Positions 12,161 to 52,299 of a stretch of 64,000 nucleotides of DNA are shown one piece after another (within the stretch, counting starts at the first letter, position 1; each line of letters opens with the position of its first letter). A program made the translations under genes and the position numbers. The stretch is from Halotalea alkalilenta DSM 17697 (GTDB lineage Bacteria; Pseudomonadota; Gammaproteobacteria; Pseudomonadales; Halomonadaceae), in NCBI RefSeq assembly GCF_000621205.1, contig NZ_KK211226.1, forward strand, positions 96,001-160,000, given 5' to 3'. Under the pieces are notes generated by a model, which worked only from the letters and a program-made list of their open reading frames with translations, did no database searches and had not been told where the DNA came from.

Positions 12161-12200
12161 ATCGCTGCGTGGTGTTTCACGTGAAACGCCACGCAGCGAT
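12161..12200. other. parS-like site inside a 40-bp palindrome (site 1)
   Basis: tgtttcacgtgaaacg at 12173-12188 matches the bacterial parS consensus TGTTYCACGTGRAACA at 15 of 16 positions. Perfect 12-bp inverted arms flank it, so the full 40 bp is a palindrome with one mispaired position and no loop. The absence of a loop favours a protein-binding site over a terminator. Its right edge touches the ilvA-derived direct repeat. Confidence 0.6.
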
Positions 12201-12239
12201 TCAAGCCAGAAACAGCCTGTAGGCGGGGTTGTCGCTCTC
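12200..12239. repeat. 40-bp direct repeat of the ilvA 3' end (left copy, att-like)
   Basis: This 40-bp sequence is identical to 15322-15361, the last codons and stop of ilvA. On the minus strand it still reads [12 protein letters not shown] and stop, but the DNA upstream is not ilvA. With the right copy it brackets a 3.1-kb AT-rich segment, the pattern left by site-specific insertion into the 3' end of a gene. No integrase is present. Confidence 0.75.
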
Positions 12240-12240
12240 C

Positions 12241-12734
12241 TTACCCGGCGGCACGGCAACCAGCCGCTTGGCCGAGCCGTCGCTCTGCGGTACCGAACGA
12301 TCAGAAGAATAGGTTGCCTTCGCCGATCTCCCAGTTGATGAAACCCGGCTCCCGGTTCTGGTCCGCGGTGATCTCCGAGTTCAAGCTGCCCCAGCTCAAC
12401 ATGCCCTGTGTAACAGACCGCTGACAAAGTATTTGAAGATGCCACGATGGCTTCCAGCCGCCTCCAAGAGCGCGCTGGCCGGCAATCGATTGCACCGGGG
12501 TTTGCGACATGGATGTCGCAAAAGGCGCGCCCGGACAGGGACGTCCATGCGCGCCGACCCGAGGGCAAGCGATTGCCGGCCAGGGTTTCGCGATCTTGTG
12601 GCGGCGCATCCCCATCAGGGGGAGCGCGAGGGGTCCGCCCCTCGCATCTAAACGAGCGATAGGCTCGTTAGAGCGAAAACGGTTCTCGACTCGCCAGGAT
12701 CGAAAGTGTCGCTGGGTCCGAAAGGGGTTTGTCA
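12241..12734. other. Non-coding left part of the island with a decayed gene tail
   Basis: No intact gene is seen. On the minus strand 12301-12402 reads a protein-like tail, MLSWGSLNSEITAD through INWEIGEGNLFF and stop, which may be the end of a lost gene; the frame upstream of it runs into a palindromic element and is not protein-like. A small hairpin (aacgagc/gctcgtt) lies at 12651-12669. Confidence 0.4.
12475..12583. repeat. ERIC-like imperfect palindromic element
   Basis: Outer 14-bp inverted repeats (ctggccggcaatcg at 12475-12488 and its complement at 12570-12583) enclose an inner perfect hairpin, tttgcgacat-gg-atgtcgcaaa, at 12501-12522. A further gcgcgc pair lies inside. The overall 109-bp cruciform shape resembles mobile intergenic palindromes such as ERIC or MITEs. 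Only one copy is seen in the window. Confidence 0.5.
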
Positions 12735-13118
12735 TTAATCTGGTGTAATGACATTGTTCTTTAGCGCGCCCCCCTTCAGTGCGGAAAACTGCCCCTCCGT
12801 AAGAACGGAGCTGAACAGCTCACCCATATACTTTGGCAGCTTGCTTACCTCAGGGATCAAATGATTGAACAGAGCATCACCTGTTCCTTTCTTGCTTTCA
12901 GGATCAACATAATGCCTGGACTCATCCTCATAGTTTTCATAGTAATAGTCATTGTTTTGACCGATCAAATTATAAATATAGTAAGTAGGCACCGTGGGCC
13001 CACTGCCACTGCTGAAGTGTACACCGGCCATTGTGAACCCGCCGCCAGCATAATTCGGTTGCGTTGGAGGAGTATAATATCCCCAGACGGTCATCGCAGA
13101 AGCTGTTTGCATCGTCAT
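12735..13118 (-). CDS. Hypothetical Tyr/Asn-rich protein of the AT-rich island
   Basis: A 127-residue protein that I do not recognise. The N-terminal half is rich in Gly, Tyr, Pro and Asn (VWGYYTPPTQPNYAGGGFTMAG, split by no hydrophobic segment), followed by an acidic YYYENYEDESRHYVD stretch and a more ordinary helical C-terminus. No signal peptide or transmembrane segment is seen. A gaggt ribosome site stands 7 nt before the ATG at 13118, and codon use is more AT-rich than the surroundings, suggesting transfer. It faces the tandem membrane-protein genes divergently. Confidence 0.6.
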   Translation of the reverse strand: MTMQTASAMTVWGYYTPPTQPNYAGGGFTMAGVHFSSGSGPTVPTYYIYNLIGQNNDYYYENYEDESRHYVDPESKKGTGDALFNHLIPEVSKLPKYMGELFSSVLTEGQFSALKGGALKNNVITPD

Positions 13119-13475
13119 CGTTCACCTCGAATGATTTTCTTTTTAAGCAAGGCACGATCTAAACGACTTGGGTCAACCACAAAAATAGGTGGCGCCGGGA
13201 GATTTATAATAAGTCAGCACGAAAAGGCTAACTGACATAGAGTTAATACGACACAGACTCAAATGCAAGTGAATATCATTAAGATTTGTCTAAGAAAAGG
13301 CTTTTCTCCCCCGGCTATACTGCTAGCAGCGCCGGCCTTCACATTGATCCGTGCGCTTAGCCTCTACCGCATTCCTTGCGGCGAGGCCGGAGACGGATTT
13401 TCTTTTTCACCCCGGTCGAGGGCGAATTTAGGCTACCAAGGCATTGTTTAACGGTGAAAATCTGGTAGAGGAAGA
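13119..13475. other. AT-rich divergent intergenic region in the island
   Basis: This 357-bp stretch separates the Tyr/Asn-rich gene from the tandem membrane genes. Short open frames exist (for example 13263-13451) but none has a ribosome site or protein-like composition. It presumably holds promoters for both sides; I cannot place them. Confidence 0.3.
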
Positions 13476-13571
13476 ATGAGCGGATCGAGGCACGAAGCAG
13501 TCAGCGAAGCGACTAGCAACGGCCAAGCGACGAAAAAGGGAAAGGATAAGAGAAACAAGCTAGAGGATTAG
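13476..13571 (+). CDS. Possible 31-residue Lys-rich peptide upstream of membrane gene
   Basis: MSGSRHEAVSEATSNGQATK and a lysine/arginine-rich tail. A gagga sequence stands 3-4 nt before the ATG, and the TAG stop ends 4 bp before the next gene, which would allow translational coupling. It has no hydrophobic segment. It may be a leader peptide, a small protein or chance. Confidence 0.3.
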   Translation: MSGSRHEAVSEATSNGQATKKGKDKRNKLED

Positions 13572-13575
13572 GACA

Positions 13576-14112
13576 ATGCGTTTGGACGGGTACGGATATG
13601 CGTTTTTCGAACGCAAGGAAGATGGCGTCATCATATACCATGGCCAGTTCCGTGGCCCTGGCTACATCGTTACCGAAGAGATCAAAAGGAAAATCAAGAG
13701 GCTCTTCGCCTTCATATTCACTACCCAGCTCTTCGTCATCTTCCCTATTTTCTCCACCGGAAATTATCTGCTGGGACTCTCCATCGCCACCGTGGTCGTA
13801 GCGATCTTTTACTATGTCCATGGGAAACTAGTGAAAGACCTCCCAATATCTCCTTATCCGCGCCAGCGCTTCCCTCAGAGAGTCGATCGCATCGCAGAAA
13901 ATATGCCTATTTGGTATTTCCTTTTTTTCCCTTTCTTACTCCTACTCTTGTATGTTTTCACAAATCATTTCTTTAACCAAGAGGATCACAAGCTTTTAGC
14001 ATTCGTAAGCATGATATTCCTGCTCATACTCAATGCATGGGCGGTCTTGTGCTTGGTCGTCAAGATAAAGCACCTTTTCGAATACATACAGAAACGTCGA
14101 CAGATAAAATAA
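13576..14112 (+). CDS. Four-helix membrane protein, tandem family copy 1
   Basis: A 178-residue protein of unknown function. The cytosolic-looking N-terminus carries FFERKEDGVIIYHGQFRGPG. Two hydrophobic hairpins follow (about residues 43-62 with 65-84, and 112-131 with 143-163), separated by a conserved loop ISPYPRQRFPQRVDR. The basic C-terminus (QKRRQIK) suggests it stays inside. It is clearly paralogous to the gene at 14387 (KEDG-IIYHG-FR and SPYPRQR-PQR shared). The AT-rich codon use stands out from the chromosome. Membrane immunity proteins can look like this, but nothing here proves such a role. Confidence 0.75.
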   Translation: MRLDGYGYAFFERKEDGVIIYHGQFRGPGYIVTEEIKRKIKRLFAFIFTTQLFVIFPIFSTGNYLLGLSIATVVVAIFYYVHGKLVKDLPISPYPRQRFPQRVDRIAENMPIWYFLFFPFLLLLLYVFTNHFFNQEDHKLLAFVSMIFLLILNAWAVLCLVVKIKHLFEYIQKRRQIK

Positions 14113-14149
14113 TAAATAGTATTGCACTGAAAATCACTTGGCTAAGAGA

Positions 14150-14335
14150 GGAAAACGCCCGTACACACTATTGGTTTCTCGCATTCTTATTCCTTATCTT
14201 TTTTCATTACTACACCTGGCTTTTTGTCCAAGGCGATAAAAAATAGAGGGCCACCCCAGTATGACTGCGCTCTCTATGAATATGACCTCGGAGATCAAAA
14301 TAAGACTTTTCATAAGATCCAGACAAAACATTGAG
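14150..14335 (+). pseudogene. Decayed middle copy of the tandem membrane-protein family
   Basis: Between the two intact copies the sequence still codes for THYWFLAFLFLIFFHYYTWLF then VQGDKK and a stop. This lines up with the second helical hairpin of copy 3 (PLWLLLFSLPFLFMITYFLAW then HFFTQDDQK). The 3' part at about 14293-14335 matches the copy 3 C-terminal codons for IKTRLFLRSRKKR at nucleotide level, with a one-base deletion before the stop. It therefore looks like the C-terminal remains of a third gene, broken by stops and deletions. Confidence 0.5.
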
Positions 14336-14386
14336 TGGTTCGTATTTTTCCACACCATAAGCGTCTCGAACAGGAGGAATAGACCA

Positions 14387-14914
14387 ATGCGCTCGAGAGG
14401 ACTCGGGAATATTTTTTTTGAAACCAAAGAAGATGGCACCATTATCTATCATGGTAAGTTTAGAGATCGTGGCTATATCGTCACCGAAAAGATAAAGAGC
14501 AAGCTGCTGGCGCTCTATTCCTCTGCCTTTGGTATCCAATTTTTTGTCATCTTTCCTGCATTTAGTACCGGACATTATTTCTTCGGACTTTTCCTGGGAG
14601 GCCTGATCGTCATGATTTTCTACTTCATCCACCGCCGATTGGTCAAAAATCTGCCTCTTTCCCCCTATCCTCGGCAACGATTGCCACAACGAGCCGAGCG
14701 GGTCGGCAGGGAGGCGCCTTTATGGCTCCTGCTTTTCTCACTTCCATTTCTGTTCATGATTACCTATTTCCTCGCATGGCATTTTTTCACCCAGGATGAT
14801 CAGAAAGCATTGGCCCTAAGCGCAATGATTTTCTTCATCCTGCTGGATATGATCCTGATCGTGACTCTAGTGATCAAAACAAGGCTTTTCCTCCGATCCC
14901 GGAAAAAACGTTGA
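14387..14914 (+). CDS. Four-helix membrane protein, tandem family copy 3
   Basis: A 175-residue paralogue of the protein at 13576. I start it at the ATG at 14387, which has a strong aggagg ribosome site 9 nt upstream and aligns with the start of copy 1; the frame stays open to 14261 but that part is the tail of a decayed copy. Shared features are FFETKEDGTIIYHGKFRDRG, the SPYPRQRLPQRAERVG loop, two hydrophobic hairpins and a basic tail (RSRKKR). Function unknown. Tandem duplication with one dead copy suggests recent turnover. Confidence 0.75.
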   Translation: MRSRGLGNIFFETKEDGTIIYHGKFRDRGYIVTEKIKSKLLALYSSAFGIQFFVIFPAFSTGHYFFGLFLGGLIVMIFYFIHRRLVKNLPLSPYPRQRLPQRAERVGREAPLWLLLFSLPFLFMITYFLAWHFFTQDDQKALALSAMIFFILLDMILIVTLVIKTRLFLRSRKKR

Positions 14915-14966
14915 GAGGCTCATGCTTTCCATGCGCTCCCCGATCAACCGTGCCATTGGCAGCCCC

Positions 14967-15085
14967 CTATAGCCTCGTCCAGAAAACCCATATCCAGAAG
15001 AACAGCGCCGGCACCTGGATCCAGTACCGTGGGGCCTGCGCCAACAACCGGCAGCGCTGCTGCGGCAGACGCAGATAGAGCAGCG
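14967..15085 (-). pseudogene. C-terminal fragment of a membrane protein
   Basis: On the minus strand an open stretch reads PLLYLRLPQQRCRLLAQAPR, then YWIQVPALFFWIWVFWTRL and stop. The hydrophobic, Trp-rich end looks like the last helix of a real membrane protein, but a stop codon lies just upstream and no start is present. The remainder of 14915-15321 has no supported gene; a plus-strand frame ending near 15200 is weaker. Confidence 0.3.
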
Positions 15086-15321
15086 GTTGCGGACTGCATT
15101 GAACTAGCGCTCAGCTTGATCCACGAAAGGGAACCATTGCCGCCTTTCGTGAAGACTCACTGGATATCATTGAATACATCGGGATTGAACGCAAAGTAGC
15201 CGCACCGCCATCGCTGAACGGCTTTCCCGCCAGCGCGTCACCTCGATGCGGGTGACTGCGGCTCAGCGCGTCGGGCCATTCGCCGCAGCCAATGGCCCGA
15301 TCCATTAGCACCGAACCCCAT

Positions 15322-15361
15322 TTCAAGCCAGAAACAGCCTGTAGGCGGGGTTGTCGCTCTC
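15322..15361. repeat. 40-bp direct repeat, right copy (3' end of intact ilvA)
   Basis: Identical to 12200-12239. Here it forms the real last codons and TGA of ilvA, so the proposed insertion would have kept the gene intact while leaving a duplicate 3.1 kb away. Confidence 0.75.
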
Positions 15362-16864
15362 TTTCCAGTAGCGGTAGCCGATTTCGTCGAGGTGGCTCTC
15401 GAGCCCTTCGAGCTCGGCGCTGGGTACCTGCATGCCGACCAGCACCCGGCCGTAGGCGGCGCCGTGGTTGCGGTAGTGGAACAGTGAGATGTTCCAGCTC
15501 TCCGGCAGGTGGCTGAGGAAGTTCATCAGCGCGCCGGGACGTTCGGGAAACTCGAATCGATAGAGCGCCTCCTCCACCCCTTGGCGGTCACCGACCGGTG
15601 GCCTGCCGCCGCCGAGATGGCGGATGTGCAGCTTGGCCAGTTCGTTGTCGGAAAGATCCTCCACCGGGTAGCCCGCCTCTTCTAGCCGGGCGATGGCACG
15701 ACGCCGGTCCTCGCCGCCGGGGACGACCTGGATGCCGACGAAGATCCGCGCCGCCTGGGCATCGGCGTAGCGATAGTTGAACTCGGTCACCATCCGCGCG
15801 CCGATGTTCTGGCAGAACTGCTTGAAGCTGCCCGGGCGTTCGGGAATGGTCACCGCGATGATCGCCTCGCGCTGCTCGCCGAGCTGGGCGCGCTCGGCGA
15901 TGTGCTGGAGCCGGTCGAAGTTGGTGTTGGCACCGGAGTTGACGCATACCAGCGTGCGCCCCGAGACACCGGGACGCTTGGCGTACTTTTTCAGCCCCGC
16001 CAGCGACACGGCACCAGAGGCTTCGGCGAGCCCGCGGGTGTCTTCGAAGATGTCCTTGACCGCCGCGCAAACCTCGTCGGTGGTCACCGTGATCACCTCG
16101 TCGACCAGATCCTTGAGCAGTGCGAACGGCGCTTCGCCGATCCGCGCCACCGCCACCCCTTCGGCGAACAGGCCGACGCTCGTCAGGGTCACCGGCTCCC
16201 CCGCGTCCATCGCGGCCTTGAGGCAGGCGGCGTCCTCCGGCTCGACCCCGATCACCTTGATCTCCGGGCGCAGGTACTTGATGTAGGCGGCCATCCCGGC
16301 GATCAGCCCGCCGCCGCCAACCGGCACGAACACCGCATCGATCGGCCCCTGGTGCTGGCGCAGAAGCTCCATCGCCACGGTTCCCTGGCCCGCGATCACG
16401 TCGGGGTCGTCGAACGGCGCCAGGTAGGTGTAGCCGAACTCGCGCTGGAGCTCGAGCGCGTGGTCGAGCGCGGCGTTGAACGCATCCCCCTCGAGCACCA
16501 CCTCCGCGCCCCGCGCCCGCACCGCGGCGACCTTGATCTCTGGCGTGATCCTCGGCATCACGATCACCGCCTTGACCCCCATCTGACGCGCCGCCAGCGC
16601 CACGCCCTGGGCATGGTTGCCGGCCGAGGCGGTAATCACGCCCTTGGCGCGCTGCTCCTCGCTGAGAAAGGTCATGCGGTTGTAGGCGCCGCGAATCTTG
16701 AACGAGAACACCGGCTGCAGGTCCTCGCGCTTGATCAGCACGCGGTTGCCCAATCGTTCGGAGAGGAAGGGGGCGGGAGAGAGCGGAGTTTCGATCGCCG
16801 CCTCGTAGACCCTCGCGGTGAGGATCTTCTTGACGTACGACTCGAGCATCGAGGTGTCAGGCAT
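15323..16864 (-). CDS. ilvA: Threonine ammonia-lyase, biosynthetic (IlvA)
   Basis: IlvA deaminates threonine to 2-oxobutanoate, the first step to isoleucine, with PLP as cofactor. The 513-residue protein has the fold-type II core with the PLP lysine in [12 protein letters not shown] (Lys56), the PLP phosphate loop [11 protein letters not shown] and the [11 protein letters not shown] segment. Two C-terminal ACT-like regulatory domains (about residues 335-420 and 430-510) give feedback control by isoleucine and valine. Length and order match the biosynthetic form, not the short catabolic TdcB. Its 3' end is duplicated at 12200. Confidence 0.96.
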
Positions 16865-17129
16865 GTTCCAGGTCCAGACAGCGGACGCGTCGCTTGGCTC
16901 GAAAAGACTATGGCGACGGCGAAGGCATCGTTCGGTGGTTGATTAAGGTGCCGCGGCGAAATGCAAACCTCGCCCTGCGGGGCGAAACGAAGCGGCTCAG
17001 TCCGCCATTGGTATCAGGCGCGCGTCGACGCGTCCAGTACCAAGCGAGGCAGCGACGCTCGCCCATCGGCGCGCGCGGTCAGCGAGTCGATAAGGGCGCC
17101 ACGGTTTCGCTTCCCCCGGGCGGGCGGCC

Positions 17130-17135
17130 TATAAT
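17130..17135 (+). promoter_or_regulatory. Probable -10 box for rpiA
   Basis: A perfect TATAAT hexamer lies 59 bp before the rpiA start. The region upstream (gtttcgcttcccc) has no good -35 match at 17 bp. The rest of the 16865-17193 gap between ilvA and rpiA shows no gene. Confidence 0.5.
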
Positions 17136-17193
17136 CTCCGGGTTCGCCACCCTACTCGACGTCGCCGCAAGGCGGCGACCGCGGAGCCAAGCC

Positions 17194-17895: not shown

Positions 17896-17928
17896 TCCTC
17901 ACCGCGCCGCTCTACTACTGGAGTCCTC

Positions 17929-18135
17929 ATGTCACGTCTCGCCTCCTTGCCACTGCTGGCACTGGCCTGGCTCGCCTGCTCACCTCAAGCGCTCGCCGCG
18001 CGTGAGGCGGACCCGGAAGCGATCGCCTTCTGGCGCGCCGCCGGCCCGACGGTGATCCTGATCATGGCGACAGCGAGCATCCTGATCGTCCTGGTCGTTG
18101 CCTTGATCCTCGCCCGGCGCGCCAAGCGCCCCTAG
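17929..18135 (+). CDS. Small exported membrane protein
   Basis: A 68-residue protein with a signal peptide (SLPLLALAWLACSPQALA, cleavage after ALA at about residue 23) and a second hydrophobic helix (about residues 41-62) ending in RRAKRP. It would leave a short periplasmic segment and one membrane anchor. A ggag site lies 5 nt before the ATG, 33 bp after rpiA, so cotranscription is likely. I do not recognise the family. Confidence 0.7.
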   Translation: MSRLASLPLLALAWLACSPQALAAREADPEAIAFWRAAGPTVILIMATASILIVLVVALILARRAKRP

Positions 18136-18246: not shown

Positions 18247-19263
18247 ATGACCAGCCCGCCGCCCATCCGCACCGTTGCCAGCCTGCTCTACCCCAAGGTG
18301 ATGAGCCTCGACGTCTGCGGCCCGCTGCAGGCGTTCGCCTCGGCCAACGTGGAACTCGGCCGGCGCGCGGCCGAGCCCGCCTATGCCATCCGCCTGCTCG
18401 GCACCGGGCCGGGCGTGATCGAGAGCTCCGCTGGTATCCGCCTGGTCCCGGACCAGCCCTATACCGACTGCTCACCGGCCTCGCTCGACACCCTGCTGGT
18501 GCCCGGCGGGGAAGGAGTCGAGGCGCTGCTCGACGATCCCGCACTGACCGACTGGCTGCGCCGGGCCGAGCCGCAGGTACGCCGGCTCGGCTCGGTATGC
18601 TCGGGGGCGCTGCTGCTCGCCGCCACCGGCCTGCTCGACGGTCGTCTCGCCACCACCCACTGGGCCGATGCCTCGCGACTTGCCAGCCGTCATCCGCGGG
18701 TCTCGGTCGATGGAGACCGGCTGCACACCTTCGATGCCACGGGCCGCGACGGCGATCCGCACCTGTTCACCTCCGCGGGCGTCACTGCCGGAATCGATCT
18801 TGCTCTGGCGCTGATCGAAGCCGATCTCGGCCGCAGCCTCTCACTCGCCGTGGCACGCCGACTGGTGATGTTCGTCCGCCGTCCCGGCGGGCAGGCGCAG
18901 TTCAGCGCACTGCTGGTTCCAGACGCGCGCAGCGAAAAGCTCGGCGCGCTGCTCGAGTGGATCGCCATGCATCTCGACCAGGATCTATGCCTGGAGCGCT
19001 TGGCCGAGCGCGCCTGCACCACGCCGCGCAGCCTCTCGAGGATGTTCGTCAGCGAGCTCGGCATGCCGCCGGGGCGCTATGTCGAACGGCTAAGGGTCGA
19101 TACCGCGCGCGGCCTGCTCGACGACGGCCAGGTCGGCATCGACACCGTCGCGCGGCTGACCGGGATCAAGCACGCCGAGACCCTGCGGCGGTTGTTCCAC
19201 AAGCATCTGGCGGTCTCACCGAGCGCCTATCGAGCCCGTTTCACCGCAGGAGAGAACGGATGA
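18247..19263 (+). CDS. GlxA family transcriptional regulator (DJ-1/PfpI-AraC)
   Basis: A 338-residue regulator. Residues about 10-185 form a DJ-1/PfpI-like domain with the nucleophile-elbow region GSVCSGALLLAATGLLDGR, as in GlxA, ArgR of Pseudomonas and FtrA-type regulators. The last 100 residues are an AraC double helix-turn-helix (LAERACTTPRSLSRMF and VARLTGIKHAETLRRLF). Members often sense nitrogen compounds, but the ligand cannot be told here. Its TGA overlaps the ATG of the MFS gene (ATGA), so the two are cotranscribed and the transporter is the likely target. Confidence 0.9.
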   Translation: MTSPPPIRTVASLLYPKVMSLDVCGPLQAFASANVELGRRAAEPAYAIRLLGTGPGVIESSAGIRLVPDQPYTDCSPASLDTLLVPGGEGVEALLDDPALTDWLRRAEPQVRRLGSVCSGALLLAATGLLDGRLATTHWADASRLASRHPRVSVDGDRLHTFDATGRDGDPHLFTSAGVTAGIDLALALIEADLGRSLSLAVARRLVMFVRRPGGQAQFSALLVPDARSEKLGALLEWIAMHLDQDLCLERLAERACTTPRSLSRMFVSELGMPPGRYVERLRVDTARGLLDDGQVGIDTVARLTGIKHAETLRRLFHKHLAVSPSAYRARFTAGENG

Positions 19264-28900: not shown

Positions 28901-30000
28901 TAGCCGATCAGCGCTTCGACGTGGCGCCCGAGTTCGAACGACTGCTCGACCCGCAGCCTTCCGGCGGCGCCCAGCGCCGCCCGGCGAGCGGGATCGCGCT
29001 CGAGCGCGAGCATCGCGTCGCGCCAGCCGTCGACATCCTCCGCGCCGACCAAGAGCCCGGTATTCGCGGTGACGATCTCGGGCAAGGCCCCCGCATCGGC
29101 ACAGATCACCGCCCGTCCAGCCGCCATCGCCTCGATCGCGGTGAGCCCGAAGGCCTCGTTGCGCGAGGGCACGCAGACGATGTCGAGCGCGGCGAGCACC
29201 TGCGGCAGGTCGGCGCGAAAGCCGCTGAAGCGTACCCGCCCGCCCAGGCCCAGCGCCTCGATGCGGCGGTCGAGTTCGGCGACGAAGCGTACATCGCTGC
29301 CTTCCCGAGCTTCCCGCCCGCCGATGATCAGCCCCTCGATGCGACTCTCGGCGGGCAGTCTCGCCAGCGCCTCGAGCCACACCAAGTGCCCCTTGCCATC
29401 GGTGAGCCGTCCCGGCAGACCGACCGCGACGCGCTGTTCATCGATACCGAGCGAGGCGCGCAGCGCGCTGCGCGCCCCGGCTGCCAGCCCAGCAGGATGG
29501 CAGGCCAGGTCGAGTCCCTGGTAGAGCCGCGCCAGCCGTTCGCTCGGCACCGGCAGCGCGCGCCGGTTGCGCGCAAGCGTCGCGTCGCTGATCGCCAGCA
29601 CCTGGTCGACCCGGCCGTAGGCCCAGCGATGATAGAGATCATGCTTCGGCTTGCTCACCCCCATGTGCTCGGTGAACACCAGTCTCAGCGAGGGATCGAG
29701 GGTCTTGAGCAGCGCGCCGATGCGCAGGTCGCTGGATTTGTGACAGTGCACCACCGAGATGCCGCGCCGGCGAACGAAGCGCGAGAGCGCGACGATTCCC
29801 AGCAGCGCGCGCGCCCGGCTGGCGCAGCTGAACACCTCGACACCGGCGGCGCGCATGCTTCGCTCGACGCTGGAACCGGCGATCGCCGCGCCATACACTT
29901 GCCACCCTTGCGACTCGAGCTCCGCGATGATCCTCGATGGATACATCTCGAGCCCGCCCCAGCCGGTCGAGAGGCAGAGCTGGAGCACTTTATGGGTCAT
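28882..30000 (-). CDS. Glycosyltransferase family 4
   Basis: A 372-residue GT-B retaining transferase. The N-terminal domain starts VLQLCLSTGWGGLEMYPSRI with the acceptor-side glycine motif. The C-terminal domain has VRFSGFRADLP and the donor signature PSRNEAFGLTAIEAMAAGR with both glutamates of the EX7E motif. Context puts it in LPS core assembly; the sugar is not known. The start overlaps nothing, and the 3' end overlaps kdkA tail to tail. Confidence 0.9.
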   Translation of the reverse strand: MTHKVLQLCLSTGWGGLEMYPSRIIAELESQGWQVYGAAIAGSSVERSMRAAGVEVFSCASRARALLGIVALSRFVRRRGISVVHCHKSSDLRIGALLKTLDPSLRLVFTEHMGVSKPKHDLYHRWAYGRVDQVLAISDATLARNRRALPVPSERLARLYQGLDLACHPAGLAAGARSALRASLGIDEQRVAVGLPGRLTDGKGHLVWLEALARLPAESRIEGLIIGGREAREGSDVRFVAELDRRIEALGLGGRVRFSGFRADLPQVLAALDIVCVPSRNEAFGLTAIEAMAAGRAVICADAGALPEIVTANTGLLVGAEDVDGWRDAMLALERDPARRAALGAAGRLRVEQSFELGRHVEALIGYYTGAA

Positions 30001-30061
30001 ACGCGCTTCCTGTATCGACTATGGTGATCCGCGACCAGCCCCCGTTAGGAGAGAAGAGGCC

Positions 30062-31108
30062 ATGACCGCCAAGCCCCGTATCCTCGTCGTACGCAACGAC
30101 AAGCTCGGCGACTTCATGCTCGCCTGGCCGGCCTTGAGAACGCTGCGCGAGGGATCGAAGGCGAATCACATCGCGGTGCTGGTGCCCGACTACACAGCGC
30201 CCCTGGCGCGGGTCTGCCCCTGGGTAGACGAGGTGATCGTCGACCCCGGCCCCAAGGGCGACCGCGAGCTGCTGGCGCAGCTGCGCGAGGGACGCTTCGA
30301 CGCCCTGCTGACGCTCTTCTCCACCTCGAGGATCGGCTGGCTGGGCTTTCGCGCCGGGATCGCACTGCGCATGGCGCCTGCGACCAAATGGGCGCAGCTA
30401 TTCTACAACGCGCGCATTCGCCAGCGCAGATCGCGCTCGGAGAAACCCGAGTATCGCTACAACGTCGAACTCGCCGAGCGGCTGCTAGACCGCTTGGGCC
30501 AGCGAGCGCCCGAGACCGCGCCGCCCTACTGGCCAATCAGCCCCGAGCAGCGCCAGGCGGAGCGACAACGGATCGCGGCCGAGTGCGGGCTGGACCCCGA
30601 CCGCCCCTGGTGGTTTCTCCACCCGGGCAGCGGCGGCTCGGCGGTCAACCTCAGCGCCGAACGCTACGTCGAACTCATCACCAGGGTCCACGCCCGGCTG
30701 GAGCGTCCAGCCGGCTGGCTGGTCACCTTCGGCCCGAACGAACAAGCCAACGCCGAGTGGGTACGCGCCGAACTCGCCGCCTCCGGCGTCGATGCCAGGC
30801 TGATGCCCAAGCGCGAAGGGCTCGCCGGGTTCGCCTGCTCGCTCGCGGCCGGCGACGGCATGATCGCCGGCTCGACCGGGCCGCTGCACATCGCCGGCTG
30901 CCTCGATCTCGGCACCGTCGGCTTCTATCCGGCCAAACGCTCCGCCACTTCGCTGCGCTGGCAGACCTGCAACGACGCATCGAAGCGGCTCGCCTTCAGC
31001 CCGCCTGCCGATGGCGATCCGGCCGCCGCCACCGACATGAGCCGGATCGACCTCGACGCCGCCGCAGCGCCGATCGCGGCGCTGATCGAGCGCCTGCGTT
31101 TCACGTGA
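30062..31108 (+). CDS. GT9 glycosyltransferase (heptosyltransferase-like)
   Basis: A 348-residue family 9 enzyme. I start at the ATG at 30062, after gagaagag, giving ILVVRNDKLGDFMLAWPALRT, the family start; the open frame upstream to 29759 runs antisense to the GT4 gene. The donor region is GMIAGSTGPLHIAGCLDLGTVGFY, with Thr-Gly in the place of the usual Ser-Gly. It resembles WaaQ-type or heptosyltransferase III enzymes of core outer branches, as inference. The stop codon lies inside a parS-like palindrome at 31098. Confidence 0.88.
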   Translation: MTAKPRILVVRNDKLGDFMLAWPALRTLREGSKANHIAVLVPDYTAPLARVCPWVDEVIVDPGPKGDRELLAQLREGRFDALLTLFSTSRIGWLGFRAGIALRMAPATKWAQLFYNARIRQRRSRSEKPEYRYNVELAERLLDRLGQRAPETAPPYWPISPEQRQAERQRIAAECGLDPDRPWWFLHPGSGGSAVNLSAERYVELITRVHARLERPAGWLVTFGPNEQANAEWVRAELAASGVDARLMPKREGLAGFACSLAAGDGMIAGSTGPLHIAGCLDLGTVGFYPAKRSATSLRWQTCNDASKRLAFSPPADGDPAAATDMSRIDLDAAAAPIAALIERLRFT

Positions 31109-31111
31109 AAC
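31098..31111. other. parS-like site (site 2), overlapping a stop codon
   Basis: gtttcacgtgaaac, the 14-bp core of the parS consensus, is present perfectly. The TGA of the GT9 gene (31106-31108) is inside it. The flanking bases (c and g) lower the 16-bp match to 14. Confidence 0.55.
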
Positions 31112-32303: not shown

Positions 32304-33005
32304 TCAACGCGCTGCATGCGCCGGGGCGCGCAGGTCCTCGACCAGCTCGCCCGCAGCCAGTGCCTGCGCCTCGTGGCCCGCCTCGGCCGGCTCTTCGAGC
32401 GCGGCGGCGCGCCATTCCCGCAGTGCAGCGGATGCCAGCAGCCGCTCGGCATAGGCCGCGCTCTGCGCCGAAAGCGGCAGCCCGAAACCGGCCCAGCGCA
32501 GCGCCACTGGAGCGAAGAAAGCGTCCACCGCAGTGAAACGCGAACCGGCGAGGAAAGGGCCTGAGAATCGCTCGAGCCCGTCGCGCCAGAGCGCGTCGAT
32601 GCGCGCGAGATCGGCACCGAGCGGCGCATCGATCCCAGCCAGGCGCAGTACCAGTGCGCAGTTCATCGGGCAGCGGCTGCGCAGCGCGGTGAAGCCGGCA
32701 TGCATCTCCGCCGCCGCCGAACGCGCCCAGGCGCGAGCCTGTGGCGACTCGGGCCAGACGCCGGGATGACGCTCGGCGAGGTATTCGATGATCGACAGCG
32801 ACTCCCACACCGTCGTCTCGCCATCGACCAGGCAGGGCACCTTGGCGTTGGGAGAGAACGCGGCGAAGCGAGCATGATTGTCCTCGGCATCGGTGAACGG
32901 CGTCAGCATCTCGTCGAAGGGGATGCCGAGCTCGCGCATCAGCGCCCAGGGACGCAGCGACCAGGAAGAGTAGTTCTTGTTGGCGATGTGCAGCAGATAT
33001 CCCAT
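32304..33005 (-). CDS. Glutathione S-transferase family protein
   Basis: A 233-residue cytosolic GST. The N-terminal thioredoxin fold has the start YLLHIANKNYSSWSLRPW and the glutathione-binding cis-proline and Ser segment KVPCLVDGETTVWESLSI; the C-terminal domain is all-helical. The NKNYSSWSLRP type of N-terminus is seen in a subgroup of bacterial GSTs of unknown substrate. It is 81 bp upstream of the nitronate monooxygenase gene, and both could act in detoxification. Confidence 0.9.
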   Translation of the reverse strand: MGYLLHIANKNYSSWSLRPWALMRELGIPFDEMLTPFTDAEDNHARFAAFSPNAKVPCLVDGETTVWESLSIIEYLAERHPGVWPESPQARAWARSAAAEMHAGFTALRSRCPMNCALVLRLAGIDAPLGADLARIDALWRDGLERFSGPFLAGSRFTAVDAFFAPVALRWAGFGLPLSAQSAAYAERLLASAALREWRAAALEEPAEAGHEAQALAAGELVEDLRAPAHAAR

Positions 33006-40311: not shown

Positions 40312-40395
40312 CACATCAGCGGCCACTCTTTCTTGCACCGCCCTCCGGCCGCTGAGCGCATTGCGACCGGAACGGCCAGCCTCTATCCTGGGCGC

Positions 40396-40479
40396 TGGAG
40401 ATGGCATGCCTCCTGTCTTCGGCCATATACCCAGCGAATCACGAAGCGAACCGCCCTCACCGGGCCGATGATGCCTACG
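40396..40479 (+). ncRNA. Fluoride riboswitch (crcB motif)
   Basis: The leader before crcB carries the conserved parts of the fluoride aptamer in order: ggagatggcatgcctcc at 40397-40413, aaccgcc at 40449-40455, and gatgatgcctac at 40467-40478. The spacing fits the two-stem pseudoknot. The aptamer ends about 100 nt before the crcB start. Fluoride binding should switch crcB on; the expression platform between 40480 and 40580 is not clear to me. Confidence 0.85.
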
Positions 40480-40580
40480 CACTGCGCTCGAGCCAGCCCT
40501 CGAGGAGCGCTGCGTGGGTCGCGCCACCGTGCTCTCCTCGCTGCCGCGAGCGCCTCGACATTCGCGCTCGGAGAATCCAT

Positions 40581-40964
40581 ATGCTCGCTTCCTTCATCGC
40601 CGTAGCCCTCGGTGGCGCCACCGGCAGCGTTCTGCGCTGGTGGCTCGGCCTGCGCTTGAACGGCCTGTTTCCCGCCCTGCCGCTGGGGACGCTGACGGTC
40701 AATCTGGCCGGCGGTCTGGTCGTTGGCCTGGCGCTGGCGATCCTCCTGCGCTTGCCGGGCATCGACCCGGTGTGGCGTGCGCTGATCGTAACCGGCTTTT
40801 GCGGGGGGCTGACCACCTTCTCGACCTTCTCCGCCGAGGTGGTGACGATGCTCACCAGCGGCCGTCCGGGCTGGGCACTGGCGATCATCAGCACGCACCT
40901 GCTGGGGTCGCTGGCGATGACGCTGCTCGGCTTCGCCCTGGTCGACTGGCTGGCGCCGCGCTGA
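40581..40964 (+). CDS. crcB: Fluoride ion channel CrcB/FluC
   Basis: A 127-residue inner-membrane channel that lets fluoride leave the cell as a dual-topology dimer. The ATG at 40581 begins MLASFIAVALGGATGSVLRW; the frame runs back to 40401 through the riboswitch and is not coding there. Four transmembrane helices are visible, with the TLTVNLAGG segment carrying the conserved Asn and the sodium and fluoride region GFCGGLTTFSTFS. Control by the upstream fluoride riboswitch is expected. Confidence 0.95.
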   Translation: MLASFIAVALGGATGSVLRWWLGLRLNGLFPALPLGTLTVNLAGGLVVGLALAILLRLPGIDPVWRALIVTGFCGGLTTFSTFSAEVVTMLTSGRPGWALAIISTHLLGSLAMTLLGFALVDWLAPR

Positions 40965-41628: not shown

Positions 41629-41632
41629 GCCA

Positions 41633-46373: not shown

Positions 46374-46393
46374 GGGCGGCCAGATGGCCGCCC
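46374..46393. terminator. Bidirectional terminator between ABC operon and glycine-zipper gene
   Basis: A perfect 9-bp stem (gggcggcca with tggccgccc) with a 2-nt loop. On the minus strand it is followed by tgctttgtttt, a U-rich tail for the glycine-zipper gene; on the plus strand cgtcgtcctttt follows for the ABC operon. Confidence 0.75.
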
Positions 46394-46459
46394 CGTCGTC
46401 CTTTTACACGCTCATCCATGAGCGCTCGTCCTTGTCCGTTCATCCCTGGGTTGTGAACC

Positions 46460-47014: not shown

Positions 47015-47503
47015 CGCTCAACTCCCTGAATGGAACGTCCCTACCCTTCTCGTCGGGGCTGACGACGCGCACGCCGACGGGACGAATCATGCGCTGCTGG
47101 AAGCGAATCCTATGCGGTGCCCACGGGCGCCACCACGGGCATTTGGTAATCATTGTATCTGCGCGTTAAATTCGCCAAATGAGTCAAAGGTCACAAAAAA
47201 TGCGGACATTTTCGAAGAAAAAGACATTTTTCCAGTTACATTCCATAGTGTATGTATCTCTCTGAGAACAGCGCTTACGCCGCCATCGGCCAAGATCGCT
47301 CACCATCAGCCAACGATTCTTTACCGAAAGGTGGCCGATCGCGTACAGCGCAACGGGTGCTACCATGCCCGCCTTGGTGAGGAAACCAGGCGCCGCGACC
47401 GCGCCGACGGCGGCGCAGCCCTTTGGCAAGCTCACGCACGCCGTCCTGGCCACGTACAAACAGGGCGATGTGTCGCTGCGTTTCGAGCGAGCTGGAGACG
47501 GGA
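47015..47503. other. Intergenic region upstream of the ETF-QO gene
   Basis: A 489-bp gap between divergent genes. The part at about 47150-47270 is AT-rich (for example gaagaaaaagacatttttcc) and probably carries promoters for one or both neighbours. I see no gene; open frames here have no ribosome site and unlikely composition. Confidence 0.3.
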
Positions 47504-49156
47504 ATGGATGTAGAGGTAATGGAATTCGACGTAGTGATCGTCGGCGCGGGCCCGAGCGGACTGGCGGCGGCGTGCCGCCTGATGCAAGGCGCTCGGGCGG
47601 CGGGCCGCGAACTGAGCGTCTGTGTGCTCGAGAAAGGATCCGAAGTGGGCGCTCACATCGTCTCTGGCGCGGTATTCGACCCGCGAGCGCTCGACGAGCT
47701 CTTCCCTGACTGGGCCAGCGAAGGCGCCCCCACCGGGCCGATGGTCGCCGAAGATGGCCTGTACTGGCTGAGCGATGCCGAACGCTCCAGGCGCCTGCCT
47801 GGCGCCTTGGTGCCGAAAAGCCTGCACAACCTTGGCCACGAGCCTGCTCATCGCCTGATCTCGGCCGCAGACCTTTGTCGCTGGCTCGCCGAGCGCGCCG
47901 AAGCACTCGGCGTCGATCTGTTCCCGGGCTTCGCCGCCCAGTCATTGATCATCGAACAAGAGCAGGTACGTGGCGTGGTCACCGGTGCGCTGGGGATCGC
48001 CGCAGACGGCAGCGAAAAGCCCGGCTATGCGCCGGGCATGGAGCTGCGGGCCCGACATACTCTGTTCGCCGAAGGCTCCCGCGGCCATCTCGGCAAGCAG
48101 CTGATCGAACGCTTCGCGCTGGCCCAGGGACGCGCCACCCAGCACCATGCGATCGGGCTCAAGGAGATCTGGGAAATCCCCCAGGCCCAGCATCGCCCCG
48201 GACGCGTGCAGCACGGTGCCGGCTGGCCGCTGGGTCGCGGCAGCCACGGCGGCTGGTTTCTCTATCATCTGGATGCGCAACGGGTAGCGGTCGGGCTGAT
48301 CGTCGATCTCGACTACACCAACCCTTGGCTGTCGCCGTTCGAGGAGTTCCAGCGGCTCAAGCACCATCCGCTGATCCGCGCCCAGCTCGAGGGCGGCGAG
48401 CGCCTCGGCTACGCCGCACGGGCGCTGACCAAGGGCGGGCCGGAAGCGCTGCCCAAGCTGGCCTTCCCTGGCGGGGCGCTGCTCGGCTGCGACGCGGGCA
48501 CCCTCGATGTCTCGCGGATCAAGGGGCTGCACATGGCGATGAAGTCGGGCATGGTCGCCGCCGACACCCTGCTCGCCGCAAGCGACGAAGCGCTCGAGCT
48601 TGGCCGTGGACTGGCGGACTTCGACACCGCCTGGGCCGACAGCTGGGCCGGACGCGAGCATGCGGCGAGCCAAGGATTCGGTGCCGCACTGCACCGCCTG
48701 GGCCCGCTGCTCGGCGGCGCCTGGAACCTGATCGACCAGTGGCTGGGCAAGCGCTTGCCGAAGCTCACCGACCCGCGCCCGGACCATGCCAGCCTGCGCG
48801 AAGCGAGCGAGGCGCCACGTATCGACTATCCCAAGGCGGACAACCGGCTCTCCTTCGATCGGCTCTCGTCGGTATATCTCACCAACGTCTACCACGAGGA
48901 GGACCAGCCCTGCCATTTGCATCTCGCCGATGCCGAGGTGCCGATCAGGGACAATCTGCCGCACTACGCCGAGCCCGCGACCCGCTACTGCCCGGCGGCG
49001 GTCTACGAGGTAGTGGAAGAGCAAGGGCAGACGCGGTTCCGGATCAATTTCCAGAACTGCATCCACTGCAAGACCTGCGATATCAAGGACCCGGCGCAGA
49101 ACATCACCTGGGTGCCACCTGAAGGCGGCAACGGCCCCAACTACCGCAGCATGTGA
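47504..49156 (+). CDS. Electron transfer flavoprotein-ubiquinone oxidoreductase
   Basis: ETF-QO passes electrons from ETF to ubiquinone at the membrane. The 550-residue product starts at ATG 47504 (or 47519) and has the FAD fold FDVVIVGAGPSGLAAACRL, a quinone-binding membrane-surface region in the middle, and the C-terminal [4Fe-4S] cysteines in YCPAAVYE and CIHCKTCDIKDP. The etfBA genes lie about 1.3 kb downstream on the other strand. In bacteria the pair serves acyl-CoA and amine dehydrogenases. Confidence 0.95.
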   Translation: MDVEVMEFDVVIVGAGPSGLAAACRLMQGARAAGRELSVCVLEKGSEVGAHIVSGAVFDPRALDELFPDWASEGAPTGPMVAEDGLYWLSDAERSRRLPGALVPKSLHNLGHEPAHRLISAADLCRWLAERAEALGVDLFPGFAAQSLIIEQEQVRGVVTGALGIAADGSEKPGYAPGMELRARHTLFAEGSRGHLGKQLIERFALAQGRATQHHAIGLKEIWEIPQAQHRPGRVQHGAGWPLGRGSHGGWFLYHLDAQRVAVGLIVDLDYTNPWLSPFEEFQRLKHHPLIRAQLEGGERLGYAARALTKGGPEALPKLAFPGGALLGCDAGTLDVSRIKGLHMAMKSGMVAADTLLAASDEALELGRGLADFDTAWADSWAGREHAASQGFGAALHRLGPLLGGAWNLIDQWLGKRLPKLTDPRPDHASLREASEAPRIDYPKADNRLSFDRLSSVYLTNVYHEEDQPCHLHLADAEVPIRDNLPHYAEPATRYCPAAVYEVVEEQGQTRFRINFQNCIHCKTCDIKDPAQNITWVPPEGGNGPNYRSM

Positions 49157-49180
49157 GGCGCCAGCGAAAGCGCCCAGGGC

Positions 49181-49456
49181 TCACGCCGAAGCGCTGCGCT
49201 CGGCCAGGGCGTGGATGAAGCTCACATCGCCGACCCATACCAGCGCCACCAGATTGAGCACGGTGACCAGGGTACCGAGCAGCAGCGGCCGCTTGCTCGG
49301 GCCCTCGGCCGCGATGCCGAGTCCGACTGCGTGGAGCATTGCGCACGCGAACAGCAGTGGATAGCCATCGAGAGTGCTCATCGCGAGCAGCGGCGGAAGT
49401 GCAACCACCAGCACCGCGACTGCGGTCCAGGCATAACGAAGACGAACGGCGCCCAT
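49181..49456 (-). CDS. Small three-helix membrane protein
   Basis: A 91-residue hydrophobic protein. The ATG at 49456 has a gagg site 8 nt upstream; the frame opens further to 49600 without a good start. Three hydrophobic segments are visible (TAVAVLVVALPPLLA, LFACAMLHAVGLGIA and LLLGTLVTVLNLVALVW). No family recognised. It is convergent with the ETF-QO gene, 24 bp apart. Confidence 0.6.
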   Translation of the reverse strand: MGAVRLRYAWTAVAVLVVALPPLLAMSTLDGYPLLFACAMLHAVGLGIAAEGPSKRPLLLGTLVTVLNLVALVWVGDVSFIHALAERSASA

Positions 49457-49535
49457 GCAGCGAGCCTCGAGGCAATTCAAGGGGGCCATAGGATATACGA
49501 TCGAGGCAGCCGCGGCGATCCGAGCCGGATCACCT

Positions 49536-49886
49536 TCAGCCGGTGGCGAGGCGCAGCACCAGTCGACCCGCGACCAGCGCCACACCCGCGGAGATCGCAA
49601 GCCCCAGCGCGCCGGCCAGGTACTGCTTGAGCCGCGCCGGGGTGGCCGAGAACAATTTCCACTTCTTGATCAGGTAGGCGATCCCGTCGATCGACTGCAT
49701 GAACAGCAGCACGAACAGGGCGAGCGCCACCGCGATCACCAGCCAGCCCGACGGGGTGTCCACATAGCGGGTCCCGGCGCTGAACAGGGCTCCGACCAGC
49801 ACAAGCCTGGCCACCCAAGCGAACAGGGCGTCCACATAGCCGTGCGACTTCATCCATTCATAAAGATCAGCGAAACGATCGAGCAT
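49536..49886 (-). CDS. Small membrane protein
   Basis: A 116-residue protein starting at the ATG at 49886 (MLDRFADLYEWMKSHGYVDA). Three hydrophobic segments follow (FAWVARLVLVGALFSAG, WLVIAVALALFVLLFM and YLAGALGLAISAGVALVAG), with a basic IKKWKLFSATPARLKQY loop. It may be cotranscribed with the next small membrane-protein gene. Function unknown. Confidence 0.65.
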   Translation of the reverse strand: MLDRFADLYEWMKSHGYVDALFAWVARLVLVGALFSAGTRYVDTPSGWLVIAVALALFVLLFMQSIDGIAYLIKKWKLFSATPARLKQYLAGALGLAISAGVALVAGRLVLRLATG

Positions 49887-50140
49887 ACCGTGTCCATCCC
49901 AAGGATATCGTCCGCCACCGCCGGCGGCCGAGCGATGCAAGGCAGGATAGCACCCGCCTCATCGATCTAGGTGACAACCGCGCGAGGTCGACTTAGCATA
50001 GTGGCGCGCCGATTTAATCAGCAACTTGCGGGGCGCGCGACGCCTTCGGGCGGTCGAAGAAATTCCGCTAAAGCAGCTTGCCGGCGACGCCTCGCGCCTC
50101 CGGGCCAGCGGCTCTCATCGGCCCAGGAACATCATCCAAC

Positions 50141-50467
50141 ATGAATCAAGCGCTATCCTCGGCACAGCTCGCCGAGCTCCCCGTCCGACCTCATCGTGCG
50201 CTGCTCTACGGCACCGACCAGCCCCAGCTACTGAAACGCCTCGACATCTGGCGGCGCGGCAAGCGCCTCGCCGCTGCCGCCGTGGAGATCGAGTTCATCA
50301 GCTCGAGCGTCGAGCTCGCCGCGCTCAGCGGTCGAGTCGAACTGCTGGTCTGCCAACCGCGCAGCGACGACGACTTCGCCAACCTCCTGCGGCTCGCGGC
50401 GACCCGCGCCGAGGAAGCGCTGTTCCTGCGCCCGTGCCGCGGCGACCGCGCCATGCGGCCGCGCTGA
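50141..50467 (+). CDS. Hypothetical cytosolic protein
   Basis: A 108-residue protein that I do not recognise. The start is the ATG at 50141; no strong ribosome site precedes it. The sequence is rich in Leu, Arg and Ala without membrane segments. It is convergent with etfA, 13 bp away. Codon use looks genuine, but a chance frame cannot be excluded. Confidence 0.5.
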   Translation: MNQALSSAQLAELPVRPHRALLYGTDQPQLLKRLDIWRRGKRLAAAAVEIEFISSSVELAALSGRVELLVCQPRSDDDFANLLRLAATRAEEALFLRPCRGDRAMRPR

Positions 50468-50480
50468 CACTCAGCCCGGG

Positions 50481-51407
50481 CTAGAGCTTGCGCTCGAGCT
50501 CGGGCAGCAGCTCGAACAGGTCGCCGACCAGCCCATAGTCGGCTACCTGGAAGATCGGCGCCTCTTCGTCCCGGTTGATCGCGACGATCACCTTCGCTCC
50601 CTGCATCCCGGCGAGATGCTGCATCGCACCGGAGATACCCACCGCGATGTAGAGATCCGGCGCGACGATCTTGCCGGTCTGTCCGACCTGCAGCTCGTTG
50701 GATACATAGCCTGCATCGACCGCCGCGCGAGAGGCCCCGATCGCGGCGTCCAGCTTACCCGCCACTCCCTCGAGCAGGGAGAAGTTCTGCTTGCTGCCGA
50801 GCCCTCTGCCGCCGCTGACGACCACCCGCGCCGCGGTAAGCTCCGGACGCTCGCTGGCCTCGCGATGGGACTCGACGAAACGCGCGCCGAGCGCCTCACC
50901 CTGCGCTTCAACGGTCTCGATCGGCGCCGGCGCCTGCTCTCCGACCGATTCGAAAGCAGTGGCGCGAATACTGAGCACCTTGAGCGGCGCGTCGCTTCTT
51001 ACCGTGGCGACCAGCGCGCCGGCGTGGATCGGCCGCTTGAAGGTGGCGGGATCCACCACCTCGATGACCTCGGATATCTGCCCCACTCCGGCGAGCGCGG
51101 CAGCGCGCGGCAGCACGTCCTTGCCAAAGGTCGAGGCGGCGGCGAGCAGGTAGCCATAGCGCTTGGCATGTGCGGCGAGCAGCGTGGCGAGGGGTTCGGC
51201 GAGCTGATCCGCATAGCGCGCATCGTCGGCGACCAGCACCCGCGACACGCCGTCGAGCCGCGCGGCCTGAGCGGCGACTTCTTCGACCCGGTACCCCGCC
51301 ACCAGCGCCTCGATCGGCGCACCGAGCTTGCGCGCCGCGGCGACCACGCGCGCGCAGGCGGGGCTGATCCGCCCATCGTGGTGTTCGATCAGGATCAAGC
51401 TGCTCAT
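50481..51407 (-). CDS. etfA: Electron transfer flavoprotein alpha subunit
   Basis: The FAD-carrying subunit of ETF, which accepts electrons from flavin dehydrogenases. The 308-residue protein has the C-terminal FAD site: [56 protein letters not shown] and [20 protein letters not shown]. Its start overlaps the etfB stop (ATGA), so the two are translationally coupled. Confidence 0.96.
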
Positions 51408-52156
51408 CGGATCACCTTCTCCACGTTACGCAGTTTGTCGATCAGGGCGTCGACCGAATCGAGGATCACCCCCCGCTGTCGGGGCGTCGGCGTCTCGACC
51501 GCGAGCACCTCGGTCTGCGCCGGCAGGTCGAGCGCCATCTCCTCGAGCGTGCGCCGCTCGATCGGCTTCTTCTTCGCCTTCATGATGTCCGGCAGCCGGG
51601 CGTAGCGCGGCTCGTTGAGCCTGAGATCCGCGGTGACCACCGCGGGCAGCGCGAGCTCCAGGGTGACCATGCCACCGTCGACCTCGCGGGTGACCCGCGC
51701 CTTTTCGCCTTCGAGCTCGACTGCGGATGCGAAGGTGGCCTGCGGCCAGCCGAGCAGCGCAGCGAGCATCTGACCGACCTGATTGTCGTCGGAATCGATC
51801 GCCTGCTTGCCGAGCAGCGCCAGTCCCGGGCGCTCTTCCTCGACGACCCGGGTGAGCGTGCGCGCCACCGCCAGCGGCTCCAGCGCGCGCTCGGTCTCGA
51901 TCAGCAGCGCTCGGTCGGCACCCACCGCCAGTGCCCCGCGCAGCTGCTCCTGGGCCGCGGCGGTGCCGATCGTCACCACCAGCACTTCACTCGCGAGCCC
52001 CCGCTCCTTGAGCCGAACCGCCTCCTCTAGCGCGATCTCGCAGAACGGATTGATCGCCATCTTGACGCTGGTCGAATCGACGCCAGTGCCATCGGCCGTC
52101 GGCCTCACACGGACGTTGTGATCGATCACCCGCTTGATCGGCACGACTATCTTCAT
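51404..52156 (-). CDS. etfB: Electron transfer flavoprotein beta subunit
   Basis: The AMP-binding ETF subunit. The ATG at 52156 gives 250 residues starting MKIVVPIKRVIDHNVRVRP, the family N-terminus; the open frame upstream to 52303 passes through a parS-like palindrome and is not coding. Marks are MAINPFCEIALEEAVRL, the LLGKQAIDSDDNQVGQMLA AMP region (in two parts around SDD) and VTADLRLNEPRYA with the recognition loop. Confidence 0.96.
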   Translation of the reverse strand: MKIVVPIKRVIDHNVRVRPTADGTGVDSTSVKMAINPFCEIALEEAVRLKERGLASEVLVVTIGTAAAQEQLRGALAVGADRALLIETERALEPLAVARTLTRVVEEERPGLALLGKQAIDSDDNQVGQMLAALLGWPQATFASAVELEGEKARVTREVDGGMVTLELALPAVVTADLRLNEPRYARLPDIMKAKKKPIERRTLEEMALDLPAQTEVLAVETPTPRQRGVILDSVDALIDKLRNVEKVIR

Positions 52157-52271
52157 GCGCGCATGCCCCCTTGGAACCCAATCGATGAAATCGTGCGCCG
52201 CGAACCCAGACGCGTGGGCGGACATTCTACGCGAGCCGGACGATCGAGGTCGAAGCCCCCGCCCGGGGCGA

Positions 52272-52299
52272 GCGCAAGGTTTCACGTGAAACCTTGCGC
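52272..52299. other. parS-like site in a perfect 28-bp palindrome (site 3)
   Basis: The core gtttcacgtgaaac (52279-52292) is flanked by perfect 7-bp arms gcgcaag and cttgcgc, with no loop. It lies between the divergent etfB and gudD genes. The core is identical to that of sites 1 and 2. Confidence 0.55.

Follow-up and report, generated by a model that had tools for sequence, protein, structure and literature searches.

The window and its parS-like sites

The DNA considered here is a 64-kb stretch (the window) of the genome of Halotalea alkalilenta DSM 17697 (G000; 4,465,828 bases in 40 contigs), corresponding to positions 96001-160000 of the 399-kb contig C1. It carries three copies of the 14-bp core GTTTCACGTGAAAC (Table 1), which are very probably parS sites, the DNA elements through which bacteria separate their replicated chromosomes. 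A preliminary description of this DNA had reported these three identical 14-mers, and all of them are exact and were correctly placed. Such a sequence had also been described as rare by chance, in agreement with the 5.8e-5 exact copies per 64 kb, or 0.004 per genome, that are expected from base composition. At up to three mismatches the window contains four matches, compared to a mean of 0.70 in dinucleotide shuffles, with four being reached in 1/100 shuffles.

Two of the copies are centred in longer palindromes, again as first described, one of 40 bp with a single broken pair and one that is perfect over 28 bp; the palindrome at 31098 is just 16 bp. The core at 31098 supplies the TGA stop codon (31106-31108) of a + strand open reading frame (ORF) at 29759-31108 (glycosyltransferase-9-like), and this site is therefore partly coding. 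That ORF is omitted by the gene caller used here. Site 52279 lies ahead of the ETF domain, inside an over-long ORF call. The genes glyQ and glyS and one for a gmhB-type phosphatase, which the description had also listed, are present.

Table 1. Candidate parS sites and associated palindromes in the window, and the array on contig C1 (G001, sister genome; G017, a relative in the same family)
Feature	Window position	Position on C1	Setting	Counterparts
parS site, exact 14-mer core GTTTCACGTGAAAC	12174..12187	108174		identical at G001 760178; same intergenic slot in G017 at 18477
40-bp palindrome centred on parS, one mismatched pair	12161..12200		downstream of pyrC; strong single-strand hairpin	
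parS site, exact 14-mer core GTTTCACGTGAAAC	31098..31111	127098	between convergent ORFs	identical at G001 740471; same slot in G017 at 32371
parS site, exact 14-mer core GTTTCACGTGAAAC	52279..52292	148279	between divergent ETF-domain and enolase-superfamily genes	identical at G001 711657
Perfect 28-bp palindrome centred on third parS	52272..52299			
Whole parS array of G000		71505, 108174, 127098, 148279, 162790, 181593, 206796, 223956, 248731, 261587, 302473, 345399		

A twelve-site array on one contig

A scan of the whole genome at up to one mismatch identified 12 parS sites, eight exact and four with one mismatch, all within a 274-kb stretch of C1. The other 39 contigs gave no match at this threshold, and nor did a reversed-pattern control anywhere in the genome. 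At up to two mismatches there are 14 parS matches and five in the control, so the two extra sites, which are on other contigs, are taken as background. The preliminary description had held that many copies scattered evenly round the genome would speak against parS; instead, 12/12 lie between 71505 and 345399 of C1 and none elsewhere. The array matches the core motif of chromosomal parS, and with gaps of 12.9-42.9 kb between sites it resembles the scattered arrays of Bacilli, where several sites in the origin region are tens of kb apart.

Six of the 12 sites are inside called ORFs. Coding is supported for two of these, 302473 in recF and 71505 in a prolyl oligopeptidase ORF; 148279 and 181593 precede the recognised domain of over-long ORFs, and 223956 and 345399 are in ORFs without a family match. 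The six sites outside called ORFs, the two ahead of a domain and the location of some sites between divergent genes are what could be expected if the palindrome were a transcription factor operator rather than parS. This is very unlikely, given that the motif is the parS motif, that every copy falls within one 274-kb stretch, that one copy is inside recF while copies at a similar distance after dnaA recur across the family, and that the neighbouring proteins scanned share no common theme. Still less probable is a dispersed repeat, either REP-like (repetitive extragenic palindromic) or a terminator-type palindrome, which matches parS by chance. Several sites do sit in long hairpins, but such palindromes occur at just 10/192 sites in 35 genomes, no copies at up to one mismatch are found beyond the 274-kb stretch, and the flanks in G000 have no common sequence evident by eye, save for the pair 248731/261587.

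The partitioning proteins

The genome encodes both a ParA-type ATPase and a ParB of the kind that binds parS. The ParB gene (C4:51151) passes the TIGR00180 (parB_part) cut-off and follows rsmG and the ParA-type ATPase. The ATPase is above the cut-off for Pfam AAA_31 and below that of the NCBIfam ParA model. The NCBIfam Noc model gives ParB 222.7 bits, more than parB_part, but this is below its own cut-off of 315. In Caulobacter ParB the residues reported to contact parS are Q162, G170, K171, S172, R173, N178, G201 and R204 (PMC7383237), and when the Halotalea ParB is aligned with that protein (6t1f) the same residues are present at the Q, GKSR, N and GHAR contact positions. The closest named relatives of this ParB, at 61-67% identity, are from Billgrantia, Halomonas, Halovibrio and Vreelandella, all Halomonadaceae. 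The genome also encodes SMC, and SMC_prok_B was above cut-off in 19/19 genomes searched. G022, another family member, has a ParB above the family cut-off; its genome gave no match to parS at up to one mismatch.

Position relative to the origin

As C1 and C4 are separate contigs, the origin of replication (oriC) was located in the sister genome G001, which is complete in one contig of 4,387,428 bases. GC skew, sampled there in 40 stretches of 20 kb, is positive between 480 kb and 2.68 Mb apart from a single sample (900 kb, -0.009), and every sample on the remaining arc, which starts at 2.88 Mb and passes the end of the contig to reach 480 kb, is negative; the cumulative skew over the 440-840 kb stretch has its minimum at 474 kb. 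Close by are parB (478.8 kb) and mnmG (481.0-483.0 kb), directly followed by atpA and atpD, while dnaA is at 585.8 kb. Upstream of mnmG an AT-rich stretch has five DnaA-box-like motifs in 700 bp, against 0.02 expected, and 2-5 such motifs are found upstream of mnmG in 8/8 genomes examined (0.02-0.13 expected). In 6/7 genomes (G001, G016, G017, G018, G010 and G008) the start of mnmG and the skew minimum of the fetched stretch are no more than about 10 kb apart. From the skew minimum and the DnaA-box/AT-rich element, we infer that oriC in G001 is upstream of mnmG, beside parAB and about 100 kb from dnaA. An origin at dnaA itself was rejected for G001 in view of the net positive skew over the ~100 kb between mnmG and dnaA. 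KOPS-like octamers (FtsK-orienting polar sequences) were too few to refine this map.

Measured from this predicted origin, 12/12 parS sites of G001 are on one replichore, the dnaA side, at distances of 70.5-303 kb (array span 233 kb). The sites are thus origin-proximal, 1.6-6.9% of the chromosome from oriC in G001 and, by synteny, in G000. All eight sites of G017 are 109-191 kb from the predicted oriC on one side; in G018 seven are at 46-126 kb on one side and an eighth, with one mismatch, is far off; and in G016 eight are at 72-287 kb on one side, with the site just after dnaA 43 kb away on the other. The preliminary description had noted that glyQS and gmhB, which are near oriC in Pseudomonas, occur in this DNA as well. 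The genes are there, but in G001 they are ~250 kb from the predicted oriC, and since the closest named ParB proteins are those of Halomonadaceae the Pseudomonas analogy is a loose one.

A gene block at 1464-1499 kb of G016 contig C1 corresponds to 100-137 kb of C1 in G000. Its distance from the predicted oriC is similar in the two, ~253-289 kb in G016 and ~247-284 kb in the Halotalea genus, judged from G001. In G016 the block and dnaA are on opposite sides of oriC and in G000 they share one side, as expected of a symmetric inversion about oriC.

Conservation, spacing and turnover of sites

G000 and G001 are 95.5% identical over 275 kb aligned, and 11 orthologous sites were compared between them, the duplicate 248731 (also unchanged) being dropped. 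The core is unchanged at every position (0/154), compared to 73/606 (12%) of flanking positions (P 4e-8), which points to conservation of the core by selection. Site positions were compared with G017 through the intervals between orthologous genes in which G017 has a site (n=5), at ~68% median protein identity. In G001, which was taken for this test after the G000 result was known, 4/5 slots are filled (P 0.0011 unweighted; with weighting by gap length, 0.0076 and 0.0071). Sites 12174 and 31098 of the window share their slots with G017; 52279 does not, there being no parS site in the matching G017 slot. Three G017 sites are outside this count, 6636 (inside a gene match) and 69523 and 88445 (beyond the block). 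A first synteny test, whose null was too loose, gave no signal for G017 (5/6, P 0.45). The gaps between sites are also more even than random in G000 (P 0.003), G001 (P 0.0006) and G017 (P 0.012), although the G000 and G001 results are not independent as these genomes share sites.

Two places show that sites are gained or lost. The G001 site 624966 corresponds to two in G000 (248731 and 261587), which form an imperfect direct repeat flanking an insert (12.8 kb; genes for metabolism and transport) that G001 does not have. Conversely, G001 728692 adjoins a 7.7-kb stretch missing from G000, which also lacks that site. Site-specific integration at parS was rejected as an explanation: the 12.8-kb insert has repeat-like ends, but no integrase or transposase was found in the 11 ORFs searched of the 12 between 248731 and 261587, nor in six ORFs of the 7.7-kb insert.

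These observations bear on how many of the sites matter to the cell. The scattered sites could all bind ParB with few of them acting as centromere or SMC loader, the rest being drifted or hitch-hiking copies tolerated in a permissive zone. In P. aeruginosa and Caulobacter, parS is reported to be harmless within a zone of ~500-650 kb close to the origin or to the native sites (PMC5098823; PMC5815017), and both indel-edge cases would fit such copies. We regard this as unlikely, since it accounts poorly for a core without substitutions amid 12% flank divergence, for the filling of G017 slots (4/5 in G001, 3/5 in G000) at such protein divergence, and for a spacing in the Halotalea genus that is too even.

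Hairpins around the sites

RNA folding gives -38.0 kcal/mol (z -5.2) for 12150-12225 and -31.9 kcal/mol (z -4.1) for 52255-52315, while the hairpin at 31098 is unexceptional (z -1.6). Long palindromes, defined as at least 8/10 flanking pairs beyond the motif edge, were sought at the 192 of the 205 tabulated sites that fell within fetched stretches, in 35 genomes. Ten sites are centred in one, against 0.3 expected; these ten are not all independent, as related genomes share some sites. Site 12174 is among them, and 52279 is just under the threshold (7/10). A-runs and T-runs, the form of a bidirectional intrinsic terminator, accompany 6/10 (in G016, G017, G018, G008, G031 and G002). The window sites do not take this form: 12174 and 52279 have no T-run, and no terminator was called at 11600-12800. 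In the six terminator-like sites (L104, L106, L159, L170, L175 and L197), from five other genera, the parS core forms the upper stem.

The stem letters in the 12174 slot differ between genomes, with 11/12 pairs in G000, 8/12 in G001 and 9/12 in G017, where A- and T-runs are present. At 52279 the flank pairing is not shared by G001 (2/12 pairs). The scattered group together with G008/G031 has a higher proportion of sites in long palindromes (8/69) than the other genomes (2/123; P 0.005), a grouping chosen after the rows had been viewed.

Two structured RNAs were also found in the window. A 6S RNA is at 9235-9417 (+; RF00013, 94.6 bits), and a fluoride riboswitch aptamer (+; RF01734, 41.1 bits) is at 40388-40484, directly after glyS and overlapping the start of a mechanical ORF (40401-40964).

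Compact and scattered arrays in the family

We searched 58 genomes (G000 and 57 relatives), and 52 have at least one site at up to one mismatch. Site positions were tabulated for 35/37 family members, the others being G022 (no site) and G034. The commonest arrangement (23/35) is compact, with 2-7 sites in the first 11 kb after dnaA, and 22 of these sets begin 1.6-1.9 kb after dnaA. Some genomes with a compact cluster have extra far sites, either on the same contig (G002, G005, G012, G014, G020, G025 and G028) or on another (G002, G007, G010 and G028). G004 and G027 have a cluster 18-22 kb after dnaA together with far sites, the sites of G008 and G031 spread over ~20 kb and those of G030 over 47 kb (and perhaps also those of G007, which is from the same genus and was placed among the compact genomes), and G024 has a single site. 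Six of the 35 have scattered arrays, extending beyond 80 kb: G000 and G001 (Halotalea genus), G016 and G036, G017, and G018. With a span of 274 kb (233 kb in G001) and 1/12 sites at the recF position, G000 is clearly not of the compact type.

The preliminary description had taken clustered sites to mark the origin region, and this has to be given up: G001 has no site within 70 kb of the predicted oriC, and the array is scattered, compared to a tight cluster in 23/35 relatives. The broader link that it drew to a chromosomal ParB and the origin region fared better, with support from the parS-type ParB, the family motif, the confinement to one 274-kb stretch and the cores conserved in the sister genome; clustering at the origin is the part that does not stand.

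A tree of ParA+ParB was built from 30 genomes including two outgroups, with eight tabulated family members left out (e.g. G024, without ParA). The label 'clustered' was applied to G030, G007, G004 and G027, to G022 (no site) and to the outgroups. On this tree the six scattered genomes form one group (support 84/61; 86% of 200 bootstrap trees), within which G018, G017, G000 and G001 form an inner group (98/93). Several independent origins of scattering were rejected, as the tree needs one change (modest support).

Interpretation

Taken together, the three window palindromes are, with high probability, chromosomal parS sites and members of a 12-site array that spans 274 kb of one replichore, 70-300 kb from oriC by synteny with G001. 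Several points weigh against this reading or parts of it. The oriC position in G000 rests on synteny, the contigs being separate, and in G012 the skew minimum of the fetched stretch (-65 kb) is apart from mnmG (-27 kb), though the DnaA-box element does sit at mnmG. Three of the 12 sites in G000 have CACATG/CATGTG centres and one is GTTCCACGTGAAAC, and the strength of these variants as parS is putative. Slot sharing between G000 itself and G017 is 3/5 (P 0.014 unweighted, 0.062 length-weighted), and position sharing in the first synteny test was not above chance for G016 (1/6, P 0.45) or G018 (0/2). No excess evenness is seen in G016, G036 or G018 (P 0.68-0.75). The single origin of scattering has modest support (84/61) and depends on where the cut between scattered and not scattered is placed.

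If the array works as ParABS literature describes (PMC7022226; PMC7333895), ParB would be loaded at every parS, forming a CTP-dependent clamp that slides both ways. With sites ~13-43 kb apart, the outcome would be a wide ParB domain with interruptions, confined to one arm; ParA would move this domain as the leading segregating locus, and SMC would be loaded there. The array may derive from a compact cluster directly following dnaA, an arrangement retained by most of the family members tabulated, with the recF site surviving.

More tentatively, the centromere may have spread in one Halomonadaceae clade from a few-kb cluster to an evenly spaced, one-armed region of ~230-270 kb off oriC, which would make the array, rather than oriC, the point about which the chromosome is moved and folded. 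A subset of sites would be composite: parS would form the upper stem of a terminator-like hairpin, and passing transcription would thereby be prevented from displacing ParB where it loads. In this proposal, which we consider possible but doubtful as a whole, hairpins would insulate parS from transcription.

Comparison with known systems

Wide scattering of parS has been described as seemingly counterproductive, with SMC complexes colliding, and limited to few lineages including Bacilli (PMC8357415), and a review poses the questions of what lies behind the variable number of parS sites and behind their clustering (PMC7333895). Among the matches listed in a literature search (titles and abstract starts), none described terminators containing parS or, for Halomonadaceae, arrays of chromosomal parS; the survey of Livny et al. 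(2007) may already list relatives with many sites. The scattered arrays of Halomonadaceae are likely to be new in print. Arrays of compact, intermediate and scattered form occur within this one family, among genera with readily alignable proteins, which makes it a natural series in which to test the benefit of clustering, and it lies in the Gammaproteobacteria, the class of P. aeruginosa, whose parS placement rule has been measured.

Relative to the family's compact cluster (sites near +1.7, +2.3, +4.8 and +5.5 kb after dnaA), the Halotalea genus retains one position, the recF site, as GTTCCACGTGAAAC; the other positions of that cluster are empty at up to one mismatch and eleven scattered sites are present.

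The parS sites of Bacillus subtilis lie on both chromosome arms, in contrast to those of Halotalea, a gammaproteobacterium with all of its sites on one arm; sporulation is not known in Gammaproteobacteria. The two are alike in having several origin-region sites tens of kb or more apart. In B. subtilis there are eight, over ~0.75 Mb, and it has been suggested that the scattering may serve sporulation (PMC8357415).

Caulobacter crescentus has a parS cluster ~8 kb from ori on the left arm, with ParB spreading over ~10 kb (PMC5815017). The one-sided placement and the ParB contact residues are common to both organisms, whereas the compact cluster of Caulobacter differs from the 230-270-kb array of the Halotalea genus. 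P. aeruginosa has four clustered parS 3-15 kb from oriC and a competence zone from about -200 to +450 kb (PMC5098823). The core is of the same kind and the ParABS/SMC machinery is shared, and the asymmetric zone there is large enough for the Halotalea array. Unlike P. aeruginosa, Halotalea has 12 sites, none within 70 kb of the predicted oriC (G001), and these occupy ~230-270 kb of one arm as opposed to ~12 kb.

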